Assembly (NCBI GenBank): GCA_020746105.1
Contig: CM036642.1
Location: forward strand, 4,743,501-4,807,500
From: Trogon surrucura
Taxonomy: Eukaryota > Chordata > Aves > Trogoniformes > Trogonidae
Direction of reading: 5' to 3'
Length of the DNA: 64,000 bases
Under the pieces are notes generated by a model. That model was not told where the DNA came from. It made no database searches and worked only from the letters and a program-made list of their open reading frames with translations. The position numbers and the translations under genes were made by a program. Shown here piece after piece: positions 22,601-61,350 of the stretch (within the stretch, counting starts at the first letter, position 1; each line of letters opens with the position of its first letter).

Positions 22601-25600
22601 TTTGAAGTTCACAAATTGTGATCTTTAGGGAGGTCCTAACATTTGCACATGCATCTTCCCCTGAATAGGTGATGGCTTACAGTGGCCATAGTGCTCAGAG
22701 CAATGGCTTCCTCCAGACAGCAGGAAAAGGAGCTGTTCCCACAGTCCACCGAGGGGTAAGTGCACCTAAGGAATATTTTACCAGCCAGATGGAGATGAGG
22801 GCTCCAGATATCCTGGAAGCTATTATCCTGTTAAGAGATATTTCCCCTTTCTAAGACCTGTGATTTTAGAGGAGAAGAAAGCAGCCTGGAGTTAGTCTGA
22901 CTGACTTGTGGTCTCTTGAGCAGACAAATGACTTGCAGCTGGTTCGTGATGCCCTTCGCAGCCTCAGGAACAGTTTCAGTGGCCACGATCCACAGCACCA
23001 CACCATTGACAGCCTGGAACAGGGCATCTCCAGCCTGATGGAGCGGTTGTACCACATGGAAACACAGAAGAGGCAAGAGAGAAGGGTAAAAGCTTCCTAG
23101 GGCACTTGACTTCTCCCCTCACAACCCAGAGCTAAACGGCAATGGGAGCTTCAACTGGGAAGTGACGCTTTGTTCTCACTCTTTTGGCTTTGCACCCTAG
23201 ATCTGGGGGAAATCACCAGCAAGCAGAGCAACGAACGAGTGTAGAGACTCCTGGCCTCCCAAATCCAGTAAGTGCCTTTTGGCTCCTGCACTCCCACTGA
23301 CAAATTCATTGCTCAGGTTTCTGGGCCAGAGTCCAGGGCATAGCATCCCCCTTGGGAATCTACTTTCTCCACCTTCTTACTCCGTTTACCAGAGCTCACT
23401 TTCCTCCCTCTAGTAATTTGCTGTACTGATTAGACTTCACTGCAAAGGGAAGGGGGCAGAGACAATCTGTGGCTGCTTGTTTGTAAAGCATCATCACAGT
23501 GGGAGTCTGTCTGGGCCACTTTGGCAGTACTGCAGTGTAAGTAACTGCGACAAACAGTTACCCCTAGGATGAGAGGGAAATGGGATATTTCAGCTTTCCC
23601 GCTGGTTTGTGTGCCATCTAGTGGAGACAGATAACTGTGTGGTTGCCTCTTCCCCTGTTCGCCCCTCATTTCGTGTATGTGTAGCAGCACGGGCTGCTCT
23701 AGCACCTCCAAGTTTGCTTTTCATCATGAAGGCTGTTTTTGCCAATATTGGTCATAAAGGTCACCTAGAAAGTCTGTGAGGTTGTAGGGGACAGTAGGTA
23801 CTGGGGAAAGACAGAGAACTCCACCTTTCAGCTGCATTGTAGTGTCCAGCAGCAGAGTAACTTGGAGGTACGAGATGTGGACGAAGGTAGGAGAGGAACT
23901 CAGAAGCGTGAAGCAGGTTGTGGGAAGGATTGCTAGATTTTCCCTCCTCTCTCATAAACTACAGTTTTTAGAGCAGCCACAGTGCTAGGCACATCTTCCG
24001 TGCTAGCAGTACAATTGGATGCTGACTCTACCTTAAAATGCAAAGTTTTCCAATAAGCTGGGGGATATCTACGCTCCCCAAAGGGGGCGATTAGCCACCC
24101 TCCTGAGTACCTCTTCCCGTCACCAGTTCTCTCCTCCGATGGCACATTCGCTGAGACCACCCGTTTTGTCACCTGTTGTGGCAGGAGACAGGCTGTTCCC
24201 CCACGAGGGTGCTCTTTTCTTTGCAGAGTTGCCTCATTCTCACAGCACACCAGTGATGAGCACCAGCGCCTGCACCAAAGTGTTGTACTTCACTGACCGC
24301 TCCCTCACACCTTTCATGGTCAACATACCAAAGAGGTGAGGTCTGGCTTTTGCCTTCCTGACACTGATGTAGGAGATGCTTGTTTCCCTTAAAGCATTAG
24401 TCTTTTTCGGATACAGTCACAGCACAGGTTTTCTGTGCATTAACTTGGATATTGGATTTCATACCGTTGTCTGGGGAAGCTTTCCTAAAGCTGATGCATT
24501 TAGTTTAGAGCCCTAAGAGATTCATCTCTTTTTGTAAAAACTTGCAAGAGTAAAAGAGAGCAGCTATTGTGGCATGCAGTGCAGGACACTCCTGTCAAAA
24601 CAACTATGGCTGTCAGTGCAAAAGGGAAACTGAAAAAGGCTATTTTGAGGTGGTTCTTAGTAAATCAGGAGGCAACTCTTGCTCTGAAGAGGACCTTGAG
24701 GTCAACAGGTATGTTCCGGGCAGGGCAGATCTTCACATCCCTGTGACCAGGGTGCCACATGACTAGTTGGACTTCTGCTGGGGTCCTGCATGTCAGGTAG
24801 TAACACGTGAGCTAAGTCTGGTAATGGTGTACCAGGGGATAGTGCCAAACTCTTCTTTTGCAGGTTAGGGGAAGTGACTCTGAAGGATTTTAAGGTAGCT
24901 ATCGATCGTGAAGGAACGCACCGGTACCACTTTAAAGCCCTGGATCCAGAGTTTGGCACAGTCAAGGAGGAGGTAAGTGTGGAATTCACCTATGGGGTGC
25001 TTTGGATTCAGTGTTACCACACAACCCTGGAGACCATGGTCACTTCACTTTTAACTTGCCCCTAACCAGACTGTTTTCACAATTGTAGATTGCAGGGTGG
25101 TAAAATGGGATGTTTTCATCCCCAGCCAGAGCAATTACCTGGCTGTTGGCAAAGCCAGTCTGTGACACAGCATTGCTCAGGGGCAAAAACTCTAGACCTT
25201 CATGTACCTTTGTAAGATCTGTTGCTATGAGAGACACTTTATGGAAAGAAGGTTTATTCAAAAAACATTTTCCTTTCTTTTAAAGGTTTTTCAGAGATAA
25301 CTGTGGCATATTTTCCCTAGTGTACTGCATTACAGCCCTGTTTGTGCTCAGGCTGCTGGTGGTGTGGACTGGATTCAGTAAAGGTTACTGGGATAGTTCC
25401 CGTTTCATAAATTAAAACAAGTGTAAAAGGTTACGCTCTCTGGGAGCAGTCAGATGACTAGGTAGCCATTCTGCAGAAACAGCTGGAGATTGTAGTCTGG
25501 ATCAGAAGAGGCATGTTTCCTGTGTCTATTTTACCTTTCCTAACAAAAACATGCCAATAATAATCTTGACAGTTATTGGTAAAAAGTGGCCTAACCTGTT

Positions 25601-25858: not shown

Positions 25859-27157
25859 TCAAGCTTTTAAGTCTTGTCGCTATGGAAACCTGTAACTTGC
25901 TGCTGAGCTCAGAGAATGACCAAAAAAGCGTGTGTGCTGGAAGGAGTCCAATTCAAGCTGCCAAAAAAGAGGGATTCTCTGCAAACAACGGGTAATGCAT
26001 GTTGTGTGCGTGGACGCCTGGCATCTGACTTTCCGTGCCCAAGTGCAGACAGTGTTCTGAGACTGAAATGACAGGTCTGTGAGAAAGAACACCTTGCTTT
26101 GTCCTGTCAACTAAACCCCGAAGGCCTTAATGATGCATTGCTCCCTTCTTCTGCTTCTCCATCCCTGCAACGTTTGGTATAGACTGCAGCCTGGGCATTT
26201 CGAGTCTGTTGTTTCGTACGTGGTATTACAGAAATCTGGACTGATGGCAGAAATGTGAAGCTTTGCTTTCATGAGTCAGAAGAAGCTGCTACCTTACACC
26301 AACCTAAGGTTTGACCAGCTTTGGTCCTGGACTTGCACATGCTGCAGGAGCAGAGTGAGCTTTCTGGACATTCTAGACTGAAAGTAAGGAAATCTGACCT
26401 GGGGGGGAACACAGCCTTCTGGATGTTTTATGCATGGTCTAAAGCAAAGATCACCAGCTTGGCAAAGCTCCCTTTTCTTGCAGACCCGGGCTTCCACTTC
26501 CTAGCCCTGCTTTTCCCACTCACTTCTGAGGCCTGTCTGCGTTTGCTTTGTTGCCATGGGGACTATGGGATCCTGATGCTTGCTTATTTACTGAAGGATT
26601 TCCTTTGCAGGGGAGCTGGAATCAGCTGCTTCCCTGAGGTACTTACAACCCCTTTGTTTGTTGATCTGCTTTCCCTACACTCCTGCCCTCTCCTCTTTTA
26701 GCAAGGGAGGTGGTTTTTCACCTCTTGTGCACAGGCATCGCTGTGTGCTGCTGTCCACTCATTGCCAGGGCCACCGAACACTCGCCCACACCACGAGGGT
26801 AGGATAAACCCCATCAGTTACACCACCGGCTCCCTGGAATGCCTGCTGCTGGGGTGCCTGAAGAATCAGTGGCTGCTTGGGAAAGAACAAGCCCTGAAGT
26901 CCCTGAGGGTGGGTTTTTCTTTTTGGTTTTGTGGGTTGGTTTCTGCATTGCCTGTCTCTGCCCTTCTGCTGCCAGTCCGCTGTACTCACAGTGTGCTGGC
27001 TGGGATGTGCAGTAGGCACCGCCGGCTTAGAAGCTCAAATGGCAAGTCAAGGCTCTGCTCATTCTCAGTACATGTGCCCCTTCTGTGGACTATTTGTGTG
27101 TCTGTGCTGTGCATGAGGCTGGGAGAGGGTGAACCTGGTTTTACTGGTTTATATCCA
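25859..27157 (+). other. Probable DIXDC1 3' UTR and flank, no other gene seen
   Basis: This follows the DIXDC1 stop. I see no AATAAA before the CR1 at 27158. The nearest clear plus-strand AATAAA is at 30579-30584, so the 3' UTR may be long or may use a weak signal. Open frames up to 160 codons here show no similarity I recognise. Confidence 0.4.
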
Positions 27158-27402
27158 CATAGAATCATAGAATGTGTTGGGTTGGAAGGGACCTTTAGAG
27201 GTCATCTAGTCCAACCTCCCTGCAGTGAGCAGGGACATCTTTAACTGGGTTAGGGTGCTCAGAGCCCCATCTTGGGGCTGAGCTTGAATGTCTCCAGGGA
27301 TGGGGGCTTCACCACCTCTCTGGGCAACCTGTTGCAGTTTTTCACCAGCCTCTTGTAAAAAATGTCTTCCTTACACTCGGTCTAAACCTACCCTCTTTTT
27401 TT
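27158..27402 (-). mobile_element. CR1 LINE 3'-end fragment
   Basis: The plus strand opens with CATAGAATCATAGAATG, then TTGGAAGGGACCTTTAGAGG and a ...CCAACCTCCCTGC... block typical of the CR1 3' terminus read in reverse. The element is 5'-truncated, as most CR1 copies are. It lies between DIXDC1 and the FAM118A retrocopy. Confidence 0.92.
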
Positions 27403-27504
27403 AAAGGCTGAGATGCACAATTTTTATTCCACTTAAATCCATGGAAATATTTAACTCGGAGCTTGCCACGTAGCAGACGTAAAACACTTTTCAAAAGCGT
27501 CTGA

Positions 27505-28605
27505 GTTGGGTTGTGGTTTGGTTTTGGGTTTTTGGGGTGTTTTTTTTAATTATTTTTATTAAATAGCAGACATACCATTATCTGACTGCTTGGTTCTCAT
27601 TGGAAAGTCAGTGCCATTTTCTCCCAACTTCTTTTTAGCACAGTCCACACGTGAAGTTCCCAACAGTGTTGTGCTCTCCCCTTGATCAGCATCTGGACTT
27701 CTCTACTTGCAGATCTGAGCAGTCAGATCTTGTACACATTCTGGGAACTGGTGAAAGCAGTCCCTGTAGGAGAATACTTTTATTCCGTCCAGCAGCATAT
27801 CTGCCACTTAAGTGGTCTTCATTTTCTTTAAGCACCGACATACAACGTTCTAAATCCACTTTAGTCTTTTACGTAAAGACCTTGGAATATCTGATTACAC
27901 AGAATCTCTCCACAGCCCCAAAACAAAAGACTTGGTTCAATACAAATTTTTAAGAACTCGCATGACTTCAGGATTTTCAGTAACATCTTTATATCCCGAG
28001 GGATCTAGCGCTGTTCCACAGGGATCTGTATATAAGCTGTGAATATGAAGAACTCTATATTTTATATGACCTTTTGCCCGCTGACGAACCTTACCCGTAT
28101 CTTTCAATTCTAAAGATTCCATAGGCTTTCCCTGTTGCAGACCAAATATTTCAAGTAAATTATCACGGTTTGCAGTCAGAACCATTGTGCCTCTCTCCAT
28201 GAGTCTCAGGATTGATTGCAGAACAATCGGATTCTGAATGTGCTGTTACAAATTACCAGATGCCTCCATTAAGCAATCATGGGAGAAGTTAAGCTTAGCA
28301 CACCTGGTGTGTGGTGACGTGTTCCTAATGAGATCCCGTTCAGCCACAGGCAGGTCTCGGATTACTTTTTTACAAAATTCGGCAACGTCTCCTGGATGAA
28401 GCATTTCCAGCTGTTCAGCTGCTTCGGTGACAGCCTCAATGCAGCTTCTCTGGGAGCACAGTGCTGGGATTCCTGGTGCTACTGCAGCACTTACCCCGGT
28501 TCCAGTTACAAGAACAAGGTCCTGAGGCTGCTTTATTATTAGACTTTTTAAGGATTTTCTGGATTTCTGCTCACTTCTAATTGTTGATCGTTCTGATTAA
28601 TCCAT
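27505..28605 (-). pseudogene. FAM118A: FAM118A processed pseudogene (intronless, full length)
   Basis: The minus strand carries an uninterrupted, intronless match to FAM118A, a SIR2-like-fold protein of vertebrates. The ATG-equivalent is at 28605. Recognisable blocks are GTGVSAAVAPGIPALCS, AAEQLEMLHPGDVAEF, KPMESLELKD, VLHIHSLYTDPCG and LDPSGYKDVTENPEVM. Later, in shifted frames, come KVDLERCMSVLKENEDH, a VQDLTAQICK block and a C-terminal block ending at TAA 27559-27561. Breaks are a TAA as third codon (28597-28599), TAA at 28246-28248, TGA at 27937-27939, a frameshift after that, and TAG at 27703-27705. An AATAAA overlaps the final stop and is followed by an A-rich tail (minus strand, 27505-27548). 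The absence of introns, the full length and the A-rich tail indicate a reverse-transcribed copy. FAM118A is preferred over FAM118B because of the KSLKSLI...KQPQ N-terminus. Confidence 0.88.
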
Positions 28606-30720
28606 TTCTGAGCCCTCAGGGGAGCGGCCTTGCTCATGCAAACATGTTCCTGTTCTTGGAATTGTTTTGTACTGGTTTACATTTGTCTGAGGACTGTGGA
28701 TATTTTTATACTAGTGCTCTCTGTATATTTCTGCACGCAATATACTGTGTTTTACTCATTTTCTAGTGGATGCTGAGGTTTTGTATCGTCTCCTGTTAAC
28801 ACAACACTGGGCTCATAACTTTATTTTACTGTGGAAATACTGGTTCCTACTGGGTTTTATATTTTTGCCATCTGTAATAGGCAGCAACAATACCGTTTAT
28901 TTCCTCACTGCTTCACTGTCCAGGAGGTAACTCAAGGGTCGTATGTGTGGCTCTGTGCCACATTGGCACAACAGAACACACCTCTGGTTCTGGGCAATTT
29001 GTTGTGGTGACTTTCTCCTTACAGACAGCAGTAGGAAAGTTCATCATTGAAAAAGTTCATCAGTGGGCTGCAGCAGGGGGAATATATCTTTCTTGAAAAA
29101 GAAAATTTTCTTCCTCCCTGGAAACAAGTTTTTTTTATTGCATGGTCTTTAGGGGGTTGGTAAAGAGAGCATGGGGTTGTTATACTGAAATCAGTGCTTT
29201 TTAATGATCAATTTTATTTCAGCAAGAGCCACATAGCCAGGCTAGAACTTTAGGGAGAAAATTAAGACAGTTTTCAGGGTCTGTAGTTACCAGGTCCATA
29301 TCCCTTTCTGCTACTGACGATGAGCAGTTTGCTTTTGGAGCACGGAAGACACAGGAAGCTGTTAATGTAATCTAATGGTTAATATGAGCTTCTAATGGAT
29401 AAATCTTCAATCCAGCCTTGTCTGTAGCTGCCCAGTTTTTCCATGAAGAAAATGGTTATTAGCTGATACAGGAGCCAGTTAACTAGATCAGTTAACTAAC
29501 CATGGTCATGTTTGATGTGCCCACTGCCACCAGAGAGCTGAGAACTGAACCAAATATGGAAACACGGGCTCTCCAGAGCACCAGTGCGTTATACTTGAGA
29601 CAAAAGGCTTTTGCGGGGGGCTGGCAGTCATGTACCTTTCATCCATGCTGACGTTGCGTGTAAGCTGGGACGAACGAAGACCTCGCCGGAGCCAGAAGTG
29701 ATAGCTGCGCGCTATTCTTGTGCTCCTACGTGCAGCTCCCCTCCGTGAGGGTGAAGGTAGAATTGCTTGAATTGCCATCGTTGAAGCTGAAGGACTGCTG
29801 CTCTGATAAGCTGTATCACACACACACACAGTTTGGGTTTAGCTTTATTTCTATATTGACAAATTTTCTACCTTTGCATGATTGACAAAAAGGGGTCTGG
29901 AGGAGGTAAGGGACTATTAAGCATGAGGGTAAGAGGTATCAGGTGGAAAAAAATTTGCCAGATGTTTGTTTCTGATAAATCAAAGCAGAAGATGTTGCCT
30001 TTAAATCACCTTGGCACTACTCTAGCACTGACTTAAACAGATTTATTCCGGGGTTGTGCTCTTAATATCATACCCAGGACTTGTGTATTTTTCATTGGCT
30101 TGTTTCTGTTTCAGCTTTCTTCAAAGTTATGCTCCTATTCTGATGTCTGTAACTTGCTTATGTAACATACATGCTCTGTGTAAAATTATATTTTCATAGA
30201 AACTCTGATGTTTGCATTCATTGCTTAGAAAGGGCAATTACTCTAAAGCCTGTTCTCTAGGAAAGTGAAGGTTTATCTGTACATATAAATGGGACATATC
30301 TGACTGGTGATTAATGGACCAAGCAGTTATTTCAATAAAATGGGGCTTGCAAAGTCTGTTTAGTGCTTGTGAAAGGGGAAGATGGCTTTGAAATGAGAAG
30401 GCACAGGTAGGAGTACAACACATACATCACTGGGACTGCTTAGTGTTAGCCTTCCATGGTCCTGCAGAAACTTCTGTCACTTTTCTACAATGTTTAGGAA
30501 AGCACCTTTTCTGAGACTAGCAGAGCAGCAGGCTCAGTGTTAGTAAAATTTACATCTGCTTTTCAAATGGGCAAGAACAATAAAGAAAACCGAAACAAAA
30601 GCCCTTCTGGGCTGCCTTGGCAATAGCAGATTTCACTGCTTCCACTCCCCAGGTTGCGTGAACGGCTGCAACTGACTGAGCTGCGTGAAGGCGAGTCCTC
30701 TGTGCTTAGGAGTGATGTTG
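28606..30720. other. Intergenic region between FAM118A retrocopy and solo LTR
   Basis: AT-rich sequence with no recognised gene. It holds a short CA repeat (about 29816-29830), a CpG-enriched patch with an open frame at 29506-29829 (reported as a finding) and a plus-strand AATAAA at 30579-30584 that could be a distal DIXDC1 polyadenylation signal. Confidence 0.5.
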
Positions 30721-31914: not shown

Positions 31915-39617
<7,703 letters not shown>

Positions 39618-42556: not shown

Positions 42557-44980
42557 TTAAGGATCTGGCTTGGCAACTGGCGCTGTGACAAACAATACCC
42601 GCTGTCCTTTGTTAAATACGGCCGTAGTTGTTTCTTCATCCACCAATTCTGGCAGATCTAGTTGTAATTTGTATTTTTCGGGGACTTCAATGATTATGTC
42701 ATCCTAAATCAAGAAAATGAAAATACTTGATTAAACATTTGGCAATGAATTAGCCGTGAGCGCTTGTAGGAATTGGACACTAGGCAGAAAACAACGTTTC
42801 TGCTACATTACCTCTGAAATTCTGAGGTCACACTCGGAAACAGAGCTAACCTTGGGCAATTCAACTCTGAGTTCAATTTTGAGTGGTTTCTTGTTTGCGT
42901 CCTTCAAAGTGATCATCTCATAGACAGGGGTACTTAGCTCCTCTGGTGTTTCAGTACTGGCAATTTCCTTTATCAGATGCGCTCGAGACTGCGCCACACC
43001 TTCTTCCTTCAGCAACGCAGGAGCACTGCTGCTGTCCTCAGCTTCTATAGCGTGTAGGAGCTCATCAAGCGTCAGTTCTTTCAAGAAAAGTAAGTTTCAC
43101 ACATATCACTCAGTTACTAAGAACTGTAATGTTATGCCACTTGGCAAATATGTCAAAGCTTTAATTGTAATTCATTACAATTTGCCATTGTACTACCTGC
43201 AGACTGTCACTGGCTGTTTCTCCTTTGCCCATCATTTAATGCCAATGGATTAAAAGTTATTTTCAGATTACTCGTTACAGCAGCAACCCCTTTTATTCAA
43301 GTGAGAGCAAGAGAAACTTGGCACCTCAAAGGATCAGAGTTCCCCTATCTAGGGGACAGAGGAATGAGGACATTTGCTGTTCCAGTATCATTAGTTTTTC
43401 AATTGTAAAACACCAGAGATGAATGCAGATAGGGCAGCACAGTTAAACTAATGTCTGGTATGAACACCACTGCCTCATTCTGAATTCTTTGAGAGAAGCA
43501 TTGGGTTTATGCTTATGGCAAGGATTGGGGTGAGAGATAAGGCTTGAATAAATCTGTTGGAGAATCTGATAGGTCCTCAAAGCAAAGTGACAGCAGACCT
43601 CTACATACCCTTCTTTGTGCTCTGACCGAGCTGTGGAGTTGGCATCTGCTTTCCTTTCAAACGTTGCTGCATCGCTTCCAGGCTTCCTTTCAGTTTGAAC
43701 GATTCAACGGTGTACAGAGAAGTAAGAGTAAGGTTGCATCGCTCCTCAACGAATTTAAGTGTCAAATGGATCAACTGCTCCATTTTTTCTGGGTTTTCGT
43801 CTCCCCTCTGAAGAACATCTGGGTTATACGCAATATCTATAATGCTGTAAGGGTCTATACAAACAGTTATGTGTCAGTGTAAGTTACCGCTATGGCACCA
43901 CGCGCCAGCGTTCTTTATAATCATAGAATCATAGAATCATAGAATGTTAGGGATTGGAAGGGACCTCGAAAGATCATCAAGTCCAATCCCCCTGCCAGAG
44001 CAGGAATGCCTAGACTATGCCACACAGGAACGTGTCCAGGCAGGTCTTGAATGTCTCCAGAGAAGGAGACTCCACAACCTCTCTGGGCAGCCTGTTCCAG
44101 GGCTCCGTCACCCTCACTGAGAAGAAGTTTCTTCTCGAGTTTAAGCGGAACCTCTTATGTTCCAGTTTCAGCCCATTATTAGCCCATAATCACTTGGTTT
44201 AAAAGCAAAGAAAATGAATTTGTGGCTTCTGGGCAGAGCTAATTGTGTCAGCCTCCTCCAGAGACATCACCTCTCCGTGTGCTGACCCTGCGGTCTGTGC
44301 TCAGGGAGAGGCGTGGGAACACGACTCAGGTGTGTGTGAGCAAAGAGACTCCTGCGCCTCGGTACTTCCCAGCATTTAGGCCCGTGAAAGTTGTTCTTTC
44401 TTCCCTGTTTTGGGTGTTTTTGACCCCAAAAGGAAGACTTTAGAGTCCCCGCTGGGATACGCCTGTCACATCCTCGCCCGGCCGGGCACGACACCGCCCT
44501 CGGCCCCAGAAGAGCCGCCGTGCGACCGCCACGCAGGGCGCTGCCGCGGGAAGAAACGCATCCGGGGCGAGGCGCGACTCCCGCGGCACGTACCTCCCCC
44601 GCCCGCCGCTTCTTCCAGCGGCCCCGCGCTGACCGGCGTGGGCTCGGCGGGGCCCTGGGGCGCCGGGACCCTCTTCCAGCTGCAGACGTTGATGAACAGC
44701 GGCCCCCCGGCAGCGCCCTGCAAGACACCGATCGGCGCTCAGCTTCGGCCCGGGCCCCGCGGTCACCCGCGGACCCGCCTCCCGCCACCGAGCCCGGCAG
44801 CCGCGCACCCACCGCGGGGCGGGCCCGCAGGCACAGGTGAGGCTCCGGCGGGGCGCGGAGCCGCTCGGCCCGGGCGGCCTGCTGCCGCAGCAGCCGGCGG
44901 TAGGCCTGCGGCTCGTTCTCCGCCATCTCGTCCAGCAGCGACCAGAGCTGCGCAACGTGCGCCAGCGCCGCGCCCGCCAT
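42557..44980 (-). CDS. PIH1D2: PIH1D2, PIH1 domain-containing protein 2
   Basis: Member of the PIH1 family of HSP90/RUVBL co-chaperones; mammalian PIH1D2 belongs to the testis-enriched R2SP complex with SPAG1. Five minus-strand exons join in phase: 44813-44980, 44594-44717, 43609-43854, 42812-43077 and 42557-42703 (TAA). They give 316 residues (human 315). The start MAGAALAHVAQLWSLLDEMA parallels the human N-terminus. Exon 2 has PLFINVCSWKRVPAP and exon 3 YSIIDIAYNPDVL (PIH domain). Exons 4 and 5 form a CS-like C-terminus: KKPLKIELRVELPKV, CDLRISE, then the terminal DDIIIEVPEKYKLQLDLPEL. Intron 2 carries a CR1 fragment. The gene is head-to-head with NKAPD1, start codons 287 bp apart. Confidence 0.95.
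43922..44200 (-). mobile_element. CR1 LINE 3'-end fragment with three terminal octamers
   Basis: Three CATAGAAT octamers are followed by GATTGGAAGGGACCTCGAAAG, CCAATCCCCCTGCC and TCTCTGGGCAGCCTGTTCCAGGGC, the reverse complement of the CR1 3' end. It is 5'-truncated and sits in PIH1D2 intron 2, sense to that gene. Confidence 0.95.
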
Positions 44981-45560
44981 GGCTGCGGCCGTCGCTTAGC
45001 GACGGCGGCCGGAAGGGCAGCAAGGGCCGCGCTCCGCCGCCTTCCCCGCCCTCCTGCCGCTTCCGCGCCGGCCGGCCCCGCGATCGCCCGGCGGCCCGCG
45101 GACGGTACCCGCCCGTCCGCCCGCCCCCGGATCCGCCCCGCGGCGGCTCCGCGCCCCGGCGTGCGCAGCCGGGAGGAGGCGCCCGGCAGGGACCGCTTCC
45201 GGCGCGGCACCGCCCGGCGCTTCCTGCCCCGCCGAGCGGCCCCGGCGGGGCCTGGCAGGGCGGGAGCATGTCCCGGGTGCCGGTGGGGAAGGTGCTGCTG
45301 CGGAACGTCATCCGGCACACGGGCGCGCACAACAAGGTACGGCCGGGGCCGCCCTCCCTCCGTGGCTGCCCCGGGCCCCTCCCGCAGCGGCCTTTGTCCG
45401 CGGGCCCGGGCCGAGCCGCGCCGGGGCGGTGCCGCGCAGCGGGTGCCAGGCCCCCGGCGGCGGTGCCGGCCCAGGGGCGGGCGGGCGAAGGGCCGGGTTG
45501 TGGCCTGGCCGCGGGCAGGGGGAGCCGGGCGGGTTCCGGAGGGGAGGGAAGGGGAGGGGA
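44440..45560. promoter_or_regulatory. Shared CpG island, bidirectional PIH1D2/NKAPD1 promoter
   Basis: A long GC- and CpG-rich block covers PIH1D2 exons 1-2, the 287-bp gap between the two opposed start codons (44980 and 45268) and NKAPD1 exon 1. No TATA box is seen. The same head-to-head pair exists in mammals, supporting a shared promoter. A G-run cluster (GGAGGGGAGGGAAGGGGAGG, about 45537-45560) could form a quadruplex. Very long open frames on both strands here result from GC content. Confidence 0.75.
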
Positions 45561-48500: not shown

Positions 48501-49525
48501 ATCATCTCGGTACGCTCTCTCTCAAACAGCAGCTCCAAGTTCTCCTTTCTGTTATAGGGTACCTGTGTTTTCTGTGTTTCTCCTTTGGAGAACATGAGTT
48601 CTTGAAGTATCCTGGGGAGTGGAGACTTAACTGCAGAATAAGTTCTTATACAGAATTAATTATTTTTAAACTATGCCTAACAGAACCAGCAAGTACATTA
48701 TTTGACAAACTTACTTGAAATAACCTGCTGTAAATGAGTTTTCGTCGCTCAGTGGCTTTCAGTACACGTTCTCCTTGGCTCTGGCTCACATACCTTAAAC
48801 AGGAGTATTAGTAAGGTGTGGACCCAAGGTGTTAATAAATACTTGAAACAAAAATTTAGCTACCACATCTGTCAAAGCATCTGCTTCACTGCTCTAGCCA
48901 AGTGCATGGATGGGCTTTCTTAAAACTGTGAGACAGAAAAGGCTCAACTGCTGTGTGCCTGCCTGTCTGCTTCCTTTTGGTCATCCTTTATTCTTTTTAC
49001 AGTGACCAGCAAGAAGGAGATGAACAGAACGCTGTCAACGGGAAGAAGAAATCTCATCTGGGAAAGCACACTGCCCGTGAGTCCCACAGGCGGAAAAAAC
49101 CAAAGAAATCGCACAAGAAGAAGCAAAAAAAGCGATCACACAAAAAGCGAAAGAAAAAGAAAAAGGAGCAGGCGAGGTCATCGTCAGATTCCTCCCGGGA
49201 GAGCGAGTGCTCAGAAGAGGAGACTTCAGGCACCCGGAAAGGGAAACACAAGCGCAAGAAAAAGACCAGGAAGGTGCCTGCCAGGGAACCTACTTCTTCC
49301 TCTGGGCAGGAAAGTGACTTTTCTCATGCAAGCAGCTCAACCACCAGCAGCTCTGAGGACAGTGAATCTGAGGAGAAAAAAGAGAAACAGCCCCCAAAAA
49401 AGAGAAAGAAACATCACAGTTCTGTGTCAGAGAGGAACAGTGAAGTGCCAGAGAAGAGGAGCAAGAGGAAGAACTGGAAAGTGGCAGCTGATGAAAAATC
49501 AGAGGATAGCTCAGATGAGGACTGA
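45268..49525 (+). CDS. NKAPD1: NKAPD1 (C11orf57), NKAP domain-containing protein 1
   Basis: Basic, probably nuclear protein of unknown detailed function. Five exons join in phase: 45268-45336, 46337-46437, 47518-47673, 48196-48249 and 49003-49525 (TGA). They give 300 residues. The N-terminus MSRVPVGKVLLRNVIRHT and the internal SRMRSDGFDEE, SWNKKLYECEASMPDR and WGHSGYKELYPEEFDTDS blocks match human NKAPD1. The last exon is a long Lys/Arg/Ser-rich tail (KKPKKSHKKKQKKRSHKK, then serine- and acid-rich stretches) ending SEDSSDED. The tail is low-complexity and probably disordered, resembling RS-type splicing-associated proteins. It shares a CpG island with PIH1D2. Confidence 0.95.
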
Positions 49526-60609: not shown

Positions 60610-61350
60610 AGGTAGCGCGGAATGTCTCCGCGGGGAAGGAGAGCACAGCCGCGTCCCGTCCGGAGCCGAGCCGGGGGCAGCCGGTGCCGCAGCGGGATGT
60701 CCCGTCCGGAGCCGAGCCGAGGGCAGCCGGTGCCGCAGCGGGATGTCCCGCCCGGAGCCGAGCCGGGGGCAGCCGGTGCCGCAGCGGGATGTCCCGCCCG
60801 GAGCCGAGCCGGGGGCAGCCGGTGCCGCAGCGGGATGTCCCGTCCGCGTCTCGAACGCCAACCCCCGCGTCCGCCCGAGCCGAGCCGGGAGCTGCCGCGG
60901 GCCCTGCCCCGCGCCCGGAGGCAGCGCTGCGGTCCCTCCGCCCGACGCGGCCCGTCCCGGGCGCAGCGCGCTCCCCCGGCCGGCCCCGCTCCGCGCCGCG
61001 CGGCTGAAAAGCGGGGGCGACCGGCTCCCGGGCCGGCCCTGGCGAGAGCACGAAGGCGGCGGCGGTCCTACCTCGCTCCTCAGCGGGCTGCGGCAGCAGC
61101 AAGCGAGACGGAAGGGCGAAGGCAGTCGGCGGAGGGGCGGGGACGGCCGACGTCTGGTCCCGCCGGCGGAGCCCACCCGCCCGGGCCGTTCCCCGCCGCG
61201 GGCGTGCCCCTCTAGCCGGGGCGACGGAACCGAAAGCCGCGGGGTCCCGGCCGGCAGCGTCCCGGGCGAGCCACCTGCACGCGTGCCCGCGGACCGGAGG
61301 AGAGCGACCTCAGCTGCAGCCGGTGCCGAGAGCGATCTCGCGAGGGGATT
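60610..61350. promoter_or_regulatory. IL18: CpG island at the IL18 5' end
   Basis: A GC- and CpG-rich block contains the presumed 5' UTR exon of IL18 (minus strand, donor GAG|GTAGGA after 61072) and the start of intron 1. No TATA box is visible. Multiple long open frames here are a composition effect. The transcription start probably lies around 61100-61250. Confidence 0.6.
60655..60838. repeat. 46-bp minisatellite, four tandem copies
   Basis: Four near-identical 46-bp units start at 60655, 60701, 60747 and 60793, and a partial fifth starts at 60839. The unit includes CCGGAGCCGAGCCGGG, GCAGCCGGTGCCGC and AGCGGGATGTCCCG. Copies differ at two or three sites (CCCGTCC versus CCCGCCC; GCCGGGGG versus GCCGAGGG). 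It lies in IL18 intron 1, about 230 bp inside the gene, within the CpG island. Confidence 0.95.

Follow-up and report, generated by a model that had tools for sequence, protein, structure and literature searches.

A dead FAM118A retrocopy joined to a CR1 3' end in a trogon genome suggests template switching by an avian LINE

The window analysed here, the whole 64,000-nucleotide stretch of the Trogon surrucura genome, carries on its minus strand a composite in which a presumed 5' leader, a dead FAM118A coding copy, a presumed 3'UTR, a run of seven A and the 3' end of a CR1 element follow one another in that order and in the same orientation (Table 1). At somewhat better than even confidence, we consider this locus to be one chimeric retroposed insertion of ~1.5 kb, made by CR1 template switching. 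That the composite arose in a single event is suggested by its layout, by the geometry of the poly(A) signal and by a moderate direct repeat.

Table 1 Features of the FAM118A-CR1 composite in the window, listed 5' to 3' along the minus strand.
Feature	Positions	Strand	Remarks
Rival 5' target-site duplication b	28840..28862	minus	Equal gapped score of 13, with three gap bases vs one for candidate a
Candidate 5' target-site duplication a	28667..28682	minus	14/16 identical to 27139-27154
Presumed FAM118A 5'UTR	28606..28666	minus	Between candidate a and the ATG
Dead intronless FAM118A coding copy	27559..28605	minus	1047 nt from ATG to TAA, with four in-frame stops and three frameshifts
A/C-rich stretch with AATAAA overlapping the stop	27515..27561	minus	Poly(A) tail of the first-pass annotation
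Presumed FAM118A 3'UTR	27403..27558	minus	Outside the CR1 alignment
AATAAA polyadenylation signal	27423..27428	minus	Separated from the A7 run by 20 nt
A7 run, presumed remnant of the mRNA poly(A) tail	27396..27402	minus	AATAAA 20 nt upstream
5'-truncated CR1 3' end	27158..27394	minus	Hairpin and terminal (ATTCTATG)2
Candidate 3' target-site duplication	27139..27154	minus	3 nt past the last ATTCTATG

Judged on its sequence, minus-strand 28605-27559 is a full-length, intronless and dead copy of FAM118A, running from an ATG at 28605 to a TAA at 27561-27559. Its 1047 nt compare with an expected 1074 nt for a 357-residue protein and its stop codon, 357 amino acids being given as the canonical FAM118A isoform length (PMC12786263). 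The ruler for the comparison was a working human FAM118A sequence (357 aa, with F109, N148 and H191), which agrees with the published length and residues. In a frame-aware alignment to this working sequence, 238 of 344 aligned codons were identical; the alignment spanned the first to the last residue, with ten residues deleted and no codon inserted, and thereby confirmed that the full coding length stands on the minus strand without introns, as a first-pass annotation had claimed. In tblastn with the same sequence, 217 of 352 columns were identical. The FAM118A gene itself has introns, since predicted passerine FAM118A mRNAs are described with a 221-224-bp exon in third or fourth position (PMC12786263).

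Searched against the PDB, the two longest open stretches of the copy matched human FAM118B chains (E 1.2e-25 and 6.6e-17). The first search returned 23 distinct sequences, two of FAM118B and 21 of WDR5-type WD-repeat proteins (E >= 0.0097), while both sequences matched in the second were FAM118B; FAM118A itself was absent among the matches of both. Pfam, applied to five pieces of the copy, gave one sub-threshold SIR2_2 match (E 0.093, 13.3 vs 24.5 bits) and none for the other four. The two paralogues can be told apart by their key residues, reported as F109, N148 and H191 in FAM118A and as F122, N163 and H206 in FAM118B (PMC12700824). The F codon of the copy at 28287 and its N codon at 28170 lie 39 codons apart, which is the FAM118A spacing (41 in FAM118B), and FAM118B was ruled out as the source on this ground. 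The distance from N to H, 43 codons, is the same in the copy and in both proteins, and all three residues sit where the human FAM118A working sequence aligns.

The copy is clearly decayed. Four in-frame stops (28599, 28248, 27939 and 27705) and three frameshifts (near 27924, 27866 and 27805) interrupt it, and the three stops that the first-pass annotation had seen ahead of the first frameshift are indeed there, the stop at 27705 coming after it. The locus should thus not be annotated as a FAM118A gene. In the great tit, about 20 copies of a FAM118A-homologous region are reported on the normal chromosome 1A, a number raised about twentyfold on the rearranged one, and some of these copies are said to carry a premature stop (PMC12786263). 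Given retrocopies such as the present one, counts of FAM118A copy number in passerines need caution.

Domains on the plus strand to either side of the copy fit DIXDC1 and DLAT, and the copy would accordingly sit between these two genes, in agreement with the location first assigned to it: for DIXDC1 this is a DIX domain at 24811-25062, and for DLAT it is a set of lipoyl, E3-binding and 2-oxoacid dehydrogenase acyltransferase domains within 32501-38384. Of nine neighbouring open reading frames scanned with Pfam, six were given a family and three were not. Two long open frames, 48932-49525 (plus strand) and 44267-44995 (minus strand), had no Pfam match at E 0.01; we take them to resemble NKAPD1 and PIH1D2, which would presumably suit a DLAT neighbourhood. 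Elsewhere in the window, a G+C-rich tandem array at 60653-60846 (46-bp unit, 4.2 copies, 97% matches) is open in several frames.

The 3' end of the copy offers two candidate poly(A) sites. At the first, an AATAAA overlaps the terminal TAA and A-rich sequence follows, just as the first-pass annotation had described. Its reading of this stretch as the poly(A) tail is probably wrong. From the stop codon on, the 47 nt of 27561-27515 comprise 30 A, 12 C, 5 T and no G, and we read them as an A/C-rich 3'UTR rather than a tail, because transitions in a decaying poly(A) would be expected to introduce G. Neither of two flanks tested behind this stretch scored above 9 in the search for repeats described below, and on composition and the absence of flank repeats it was dropped as the poly(A) tail, which it probably is not. 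Beyond it, 27514-27429 consists of 86 nt of mixed sequence, leading to a second AATAAA and the A7 run. Across the window, such a signal, ending 10-30 nt upstream of an A run of at least seven, was found for 3 of 34 runs on the minus strand and for none of 12 on the plus strand (3/46 in total). From these features the copy appears to continue for 156 nt beyond its stop, to this better poly(A) site. We infer that 27558-27403 is the FAM118A 3'UTR; a comparison of this segment with the rest of the window (E 1e-3) was negative.

CR1 homology begins one base past the A7 run, on the strand of the FAM118A copy. A local alignment to a working CR1 3' end ran from 27394 to 27158, with identity at 186 of its 234 aligned positions; the exact start at 27394 depends on the CR1 sequence used. 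The segment is an interspersed repeat, since three relatives within the window match it: 44100-43930 (72% over 180 columns), 62692-62598 (81% over 96) and 39217-39313 (78% over 98). The first two of these are minus-strand CR1-like ends; that at 44 kb, 72% identical to the CR1 of the composite, may belong to another subfamily. Two ATTCTATG units close the CR1 end at 27173-27158, and its last 88 nt (27245-27158) form hairpins of -29.1 kcal/mol (z -3.58), a fold matched by 1 of 200 shuffles. The CR1 3' end has been described as an RT-binding hairpin and a terminal 8-bp ATTCTRTG repeat, tied to reverse transcription (PMC5729268); the hairpins and ATTCTATG repeats of 27245-27158 fit this description at the level of features, not base by base. 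As a separate observation, the CR1-like tail region at 39279-39365 scored 20.3 and 19.7 bits against Rfam mir-3524 on both strands, compared with a gathering threshold of 99, and the mir-3524 family possibly has a CR1-derived hairpin.

Because the better poly(A) site adjoins a same-strand CR1 end with its own hairpin and repeat, CR1 is the likelier agent of the insertion. The first-pass annotation had called for another source of reverse transcriptase or a chance event; with a CR1 3' end next to the poly(A) site of the copy, an outside enzyme is not required.

A search for target-site duplications, suggested at first for the retrocopy, gave an imperfect candidate repeat (14/16) around the FAM118A-CR1 composite as a whole, and nothing comparable in the flanks tried for the retrocopy alone. 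When the 25 nt past the CR1 end were compared with the 301 nt before the ATG, the best gapped score was 13, and the gapped form of repeat a (28682-28663 vs 27154-27136) reaches it. In controls, this score recurred in 3 of 3000 random 25-mers, in 38 of 3000 dinucleotide shuffles of the upstream sequence, and in none of 3000 random upstream windows. For an ungapped score of 12, the counts were 8 of 1500 (random 25-mers) and 0 of 1500 (upstream windows). Flanks taken for either half alone, three for the retrocopy and one for CR1, scored 7, 9, 7 and 7 vs 13 for the composite. The candidate direct repeat (28682-28667 and 27154-27139) brackets the composite, as evidence of moderate strength. The rival 5' repeat b lies 180 nt farther up than a and would give a 5' leader of ~234 nt; the nearer one is mildly favoured because G+C content is 51% in 28606-28666 vs 37% in 28667-28906.

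An origin by CR1 template switching can be pictured as follows. A CR1 endonuclease would nick the DIXDC1-DLAT intergenic DNA, and the CR1 reverse transcriptase would start target-primed synthesis at the ATTCTATG end of a CR1 RNA, of which it would copy ~237 nt. It would then switch to a spliced FAM118A mRNA, entering at its poly(A) end and copying it toward the 5' end; repair would leave the target-site duplication, and stops and frameshifts would accumulate in the copy thereafter. Instead of a template jump, the two RNAs could have been ligated before they were reverse-transcribed, a second route considered for L1 (PMC13174262). Several points count against a chimera of this kind: the A run is only 7 nt long, the repeat is imperfect, has a rival of equal gapped score and is matched by some of the controls, and CR1-like tails are frequent, the window containing three more.

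Two unrelated insertions could produce the same arrangement, namely a retrocopy made by another reverse transcriptase (an endogenous retrovirus, or a rare L1 or L2) and, later or earlier, a truncated CR1 in the same orientation. CR1 is reported as the commonest retroposed element in chicken (PMC2169234), its landing in an A-rich tail is conceivable, and the direct-repeat evidence for a single insertion is moderate. This history is nonetheless unlikely in our estimate: CR1 would have had to hit within a base of the end of the tail, in the same orientation and with no A run on its far side, and the scores of 7-9 for the flanks of either half stand against the 13 of the composite.

A parental FAM118A transcript that already ended in CR1, lying in or just past its 3'UTR and reached by read-through, could also have been copied directly, with no template switching. 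Such a transcript would explain the order, the orientation, the CR1 end, the hairpin and the single pair of repeats equally well. It would leave the AATAAA and A7 directly before CR1 to chance, except if CR1 had inserted into the parental gene right at its poly(A) site: of 128,000 strand positions in the window, 21 are no more than 3 nt from where such an AATAAA-preceded A run ends, which puts the probability that a CR1 5' end falls there by chance at about 1.6e-4 (a post hoc figure). We regard this source, the chief competitor among CR1-based origins, as quite unlikely. Least credible by far is the version of the first-pass annotation, an ordinary processed pseudogene ending at 27561-27515 with an unrelated CR1 downstream, which has in its favour the AATAAA over the stop and the A-rich sequence next to it, but whose supposed tail, with 12 C and no G, is unlike a decayed A tail, has no flanking match above 9, and leaves 27514-27403 with its AATAAA and A7 unexplained.

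CR1 is thought to be unable to copy ordinary mRNAs, and a readable mRNA/CR1 chimera, if the origin by CR1 template switching is true, would show a way round this limit. A broader proposition, which we put forward tentatively, is that template switching allows avian CR1 to mobilise complete polyadenylated mRNAs. CR1-tailed retrocopies would then be an overlooked class, as repeat annotation cuts the gene part from its CR1 part; the search rule that we offer is to look for coding-like sequence immediately 5' of a CR1 end on the same strand. A paper by Suh (2015) reportedly deals with CR1 and the scarcity of bird retrogenes. Scans of viral and prokaryote contig collections for the parent or for other CR1 copies yielded nothing usable: one scan of viral contigs gave 0 matches, and of the 8 pattern matches in viral contigs and the 290 in genome contigs given by two others, none was confirmed. 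In the open-licence literature, no mRNA/CR1 chimera was found among the matches listed, as judged by titles, abstract openings and passages, and by title none of the papers listed for a FAM118A pseudogene had it as its subject.

Template switching is claimed to be active from birds to mammals in a study that also describes, in turkey, one 5'-truncated U6 copy beside a CR1-like element, which its authors left unresolved owing to an assembly gap; of the U6 matches analysed there in chicken, turkey and zebra finch (4, 1 and 2), none is described with target-site duplications (PMC4476161). The turkey case likewise places a cellular RNA beside CR1 in a bird, whereas the present composite is wholly readable and its partner is an mRNA. 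Tailless retropseudogenes are reported as not found in chicken (PMC5322556).

Many SINEs are described as sharing a CR1-clade tail (PMC3747384), and CR1 template switching has been proposed for the passerine PittSINE (PMC5729268). The TguSINE1 and PittSINE families of passerines, with a tRNA head and a CR1 tail, resemble the composite in joining a host RNA head to a CR1 3' end and in their mobilisation by CR1, the probable route of the composite as well; they are multicopy SINE families with tRNA promoter boxes, whereas the composite is without a second copy within the window. The window also holds, at ~39120-39313 on the plus strand, a tRNA-like head joined to a CR1-like tail ending in ATTCTATG. 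The head (39137-39199) scored 34.8 bits against the Rfam tRNA model (gathering threshold 29) in a scan of 38900-39500 with laxer filters; it was missed both by ARAGORN, which found no tRNA in the window, and by the whole-window Rfam search at gathering thresholds, which gave 0 matches. From its layout we infer that this element may be TguSINE1, which is said to have arisen in the ancestor of Eupasseres (PMC5729268); if so, the element would by itself point to a passerine source.

Chimeras made by LINE template switching are described by five features: a full-length cellular RNA at the 5' side, a 5'-truncated LINE at the 3' side, direct joining in the same orientation, short direct repeats, and random LINE truncation sites (PMC2104539). 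Like the U6/L1, mRNA/L1 and WEIRD/MGL chimeras of Buzdin and Gogvadze, the trogon locus has an RNA copy at its 5' side, a 5'-truncated LINE 3' part, direct joining in the same orientation and candidate repeats; its 5' part spans the whole coding sequence, from ATG to stop, with a presumed mRNA 5' end. An ordinary L1-made processed pseudogene is alike in being intronless, dead and flanked by a candidate repeat, whereas the present copy ends in CR1 and not in a long poly(A). In a human L1 catalogue, 15 of 17 mRNA or lncRNA partners are reported to be the beginnings of transcripts, and many are joined at splice sites (PMC13174262). Unlike L1 chimeras, the trogon composite has an avian CR1 as its LINE and an apparently whole polyadenylated protein-coding mRNA as its 5' partner.
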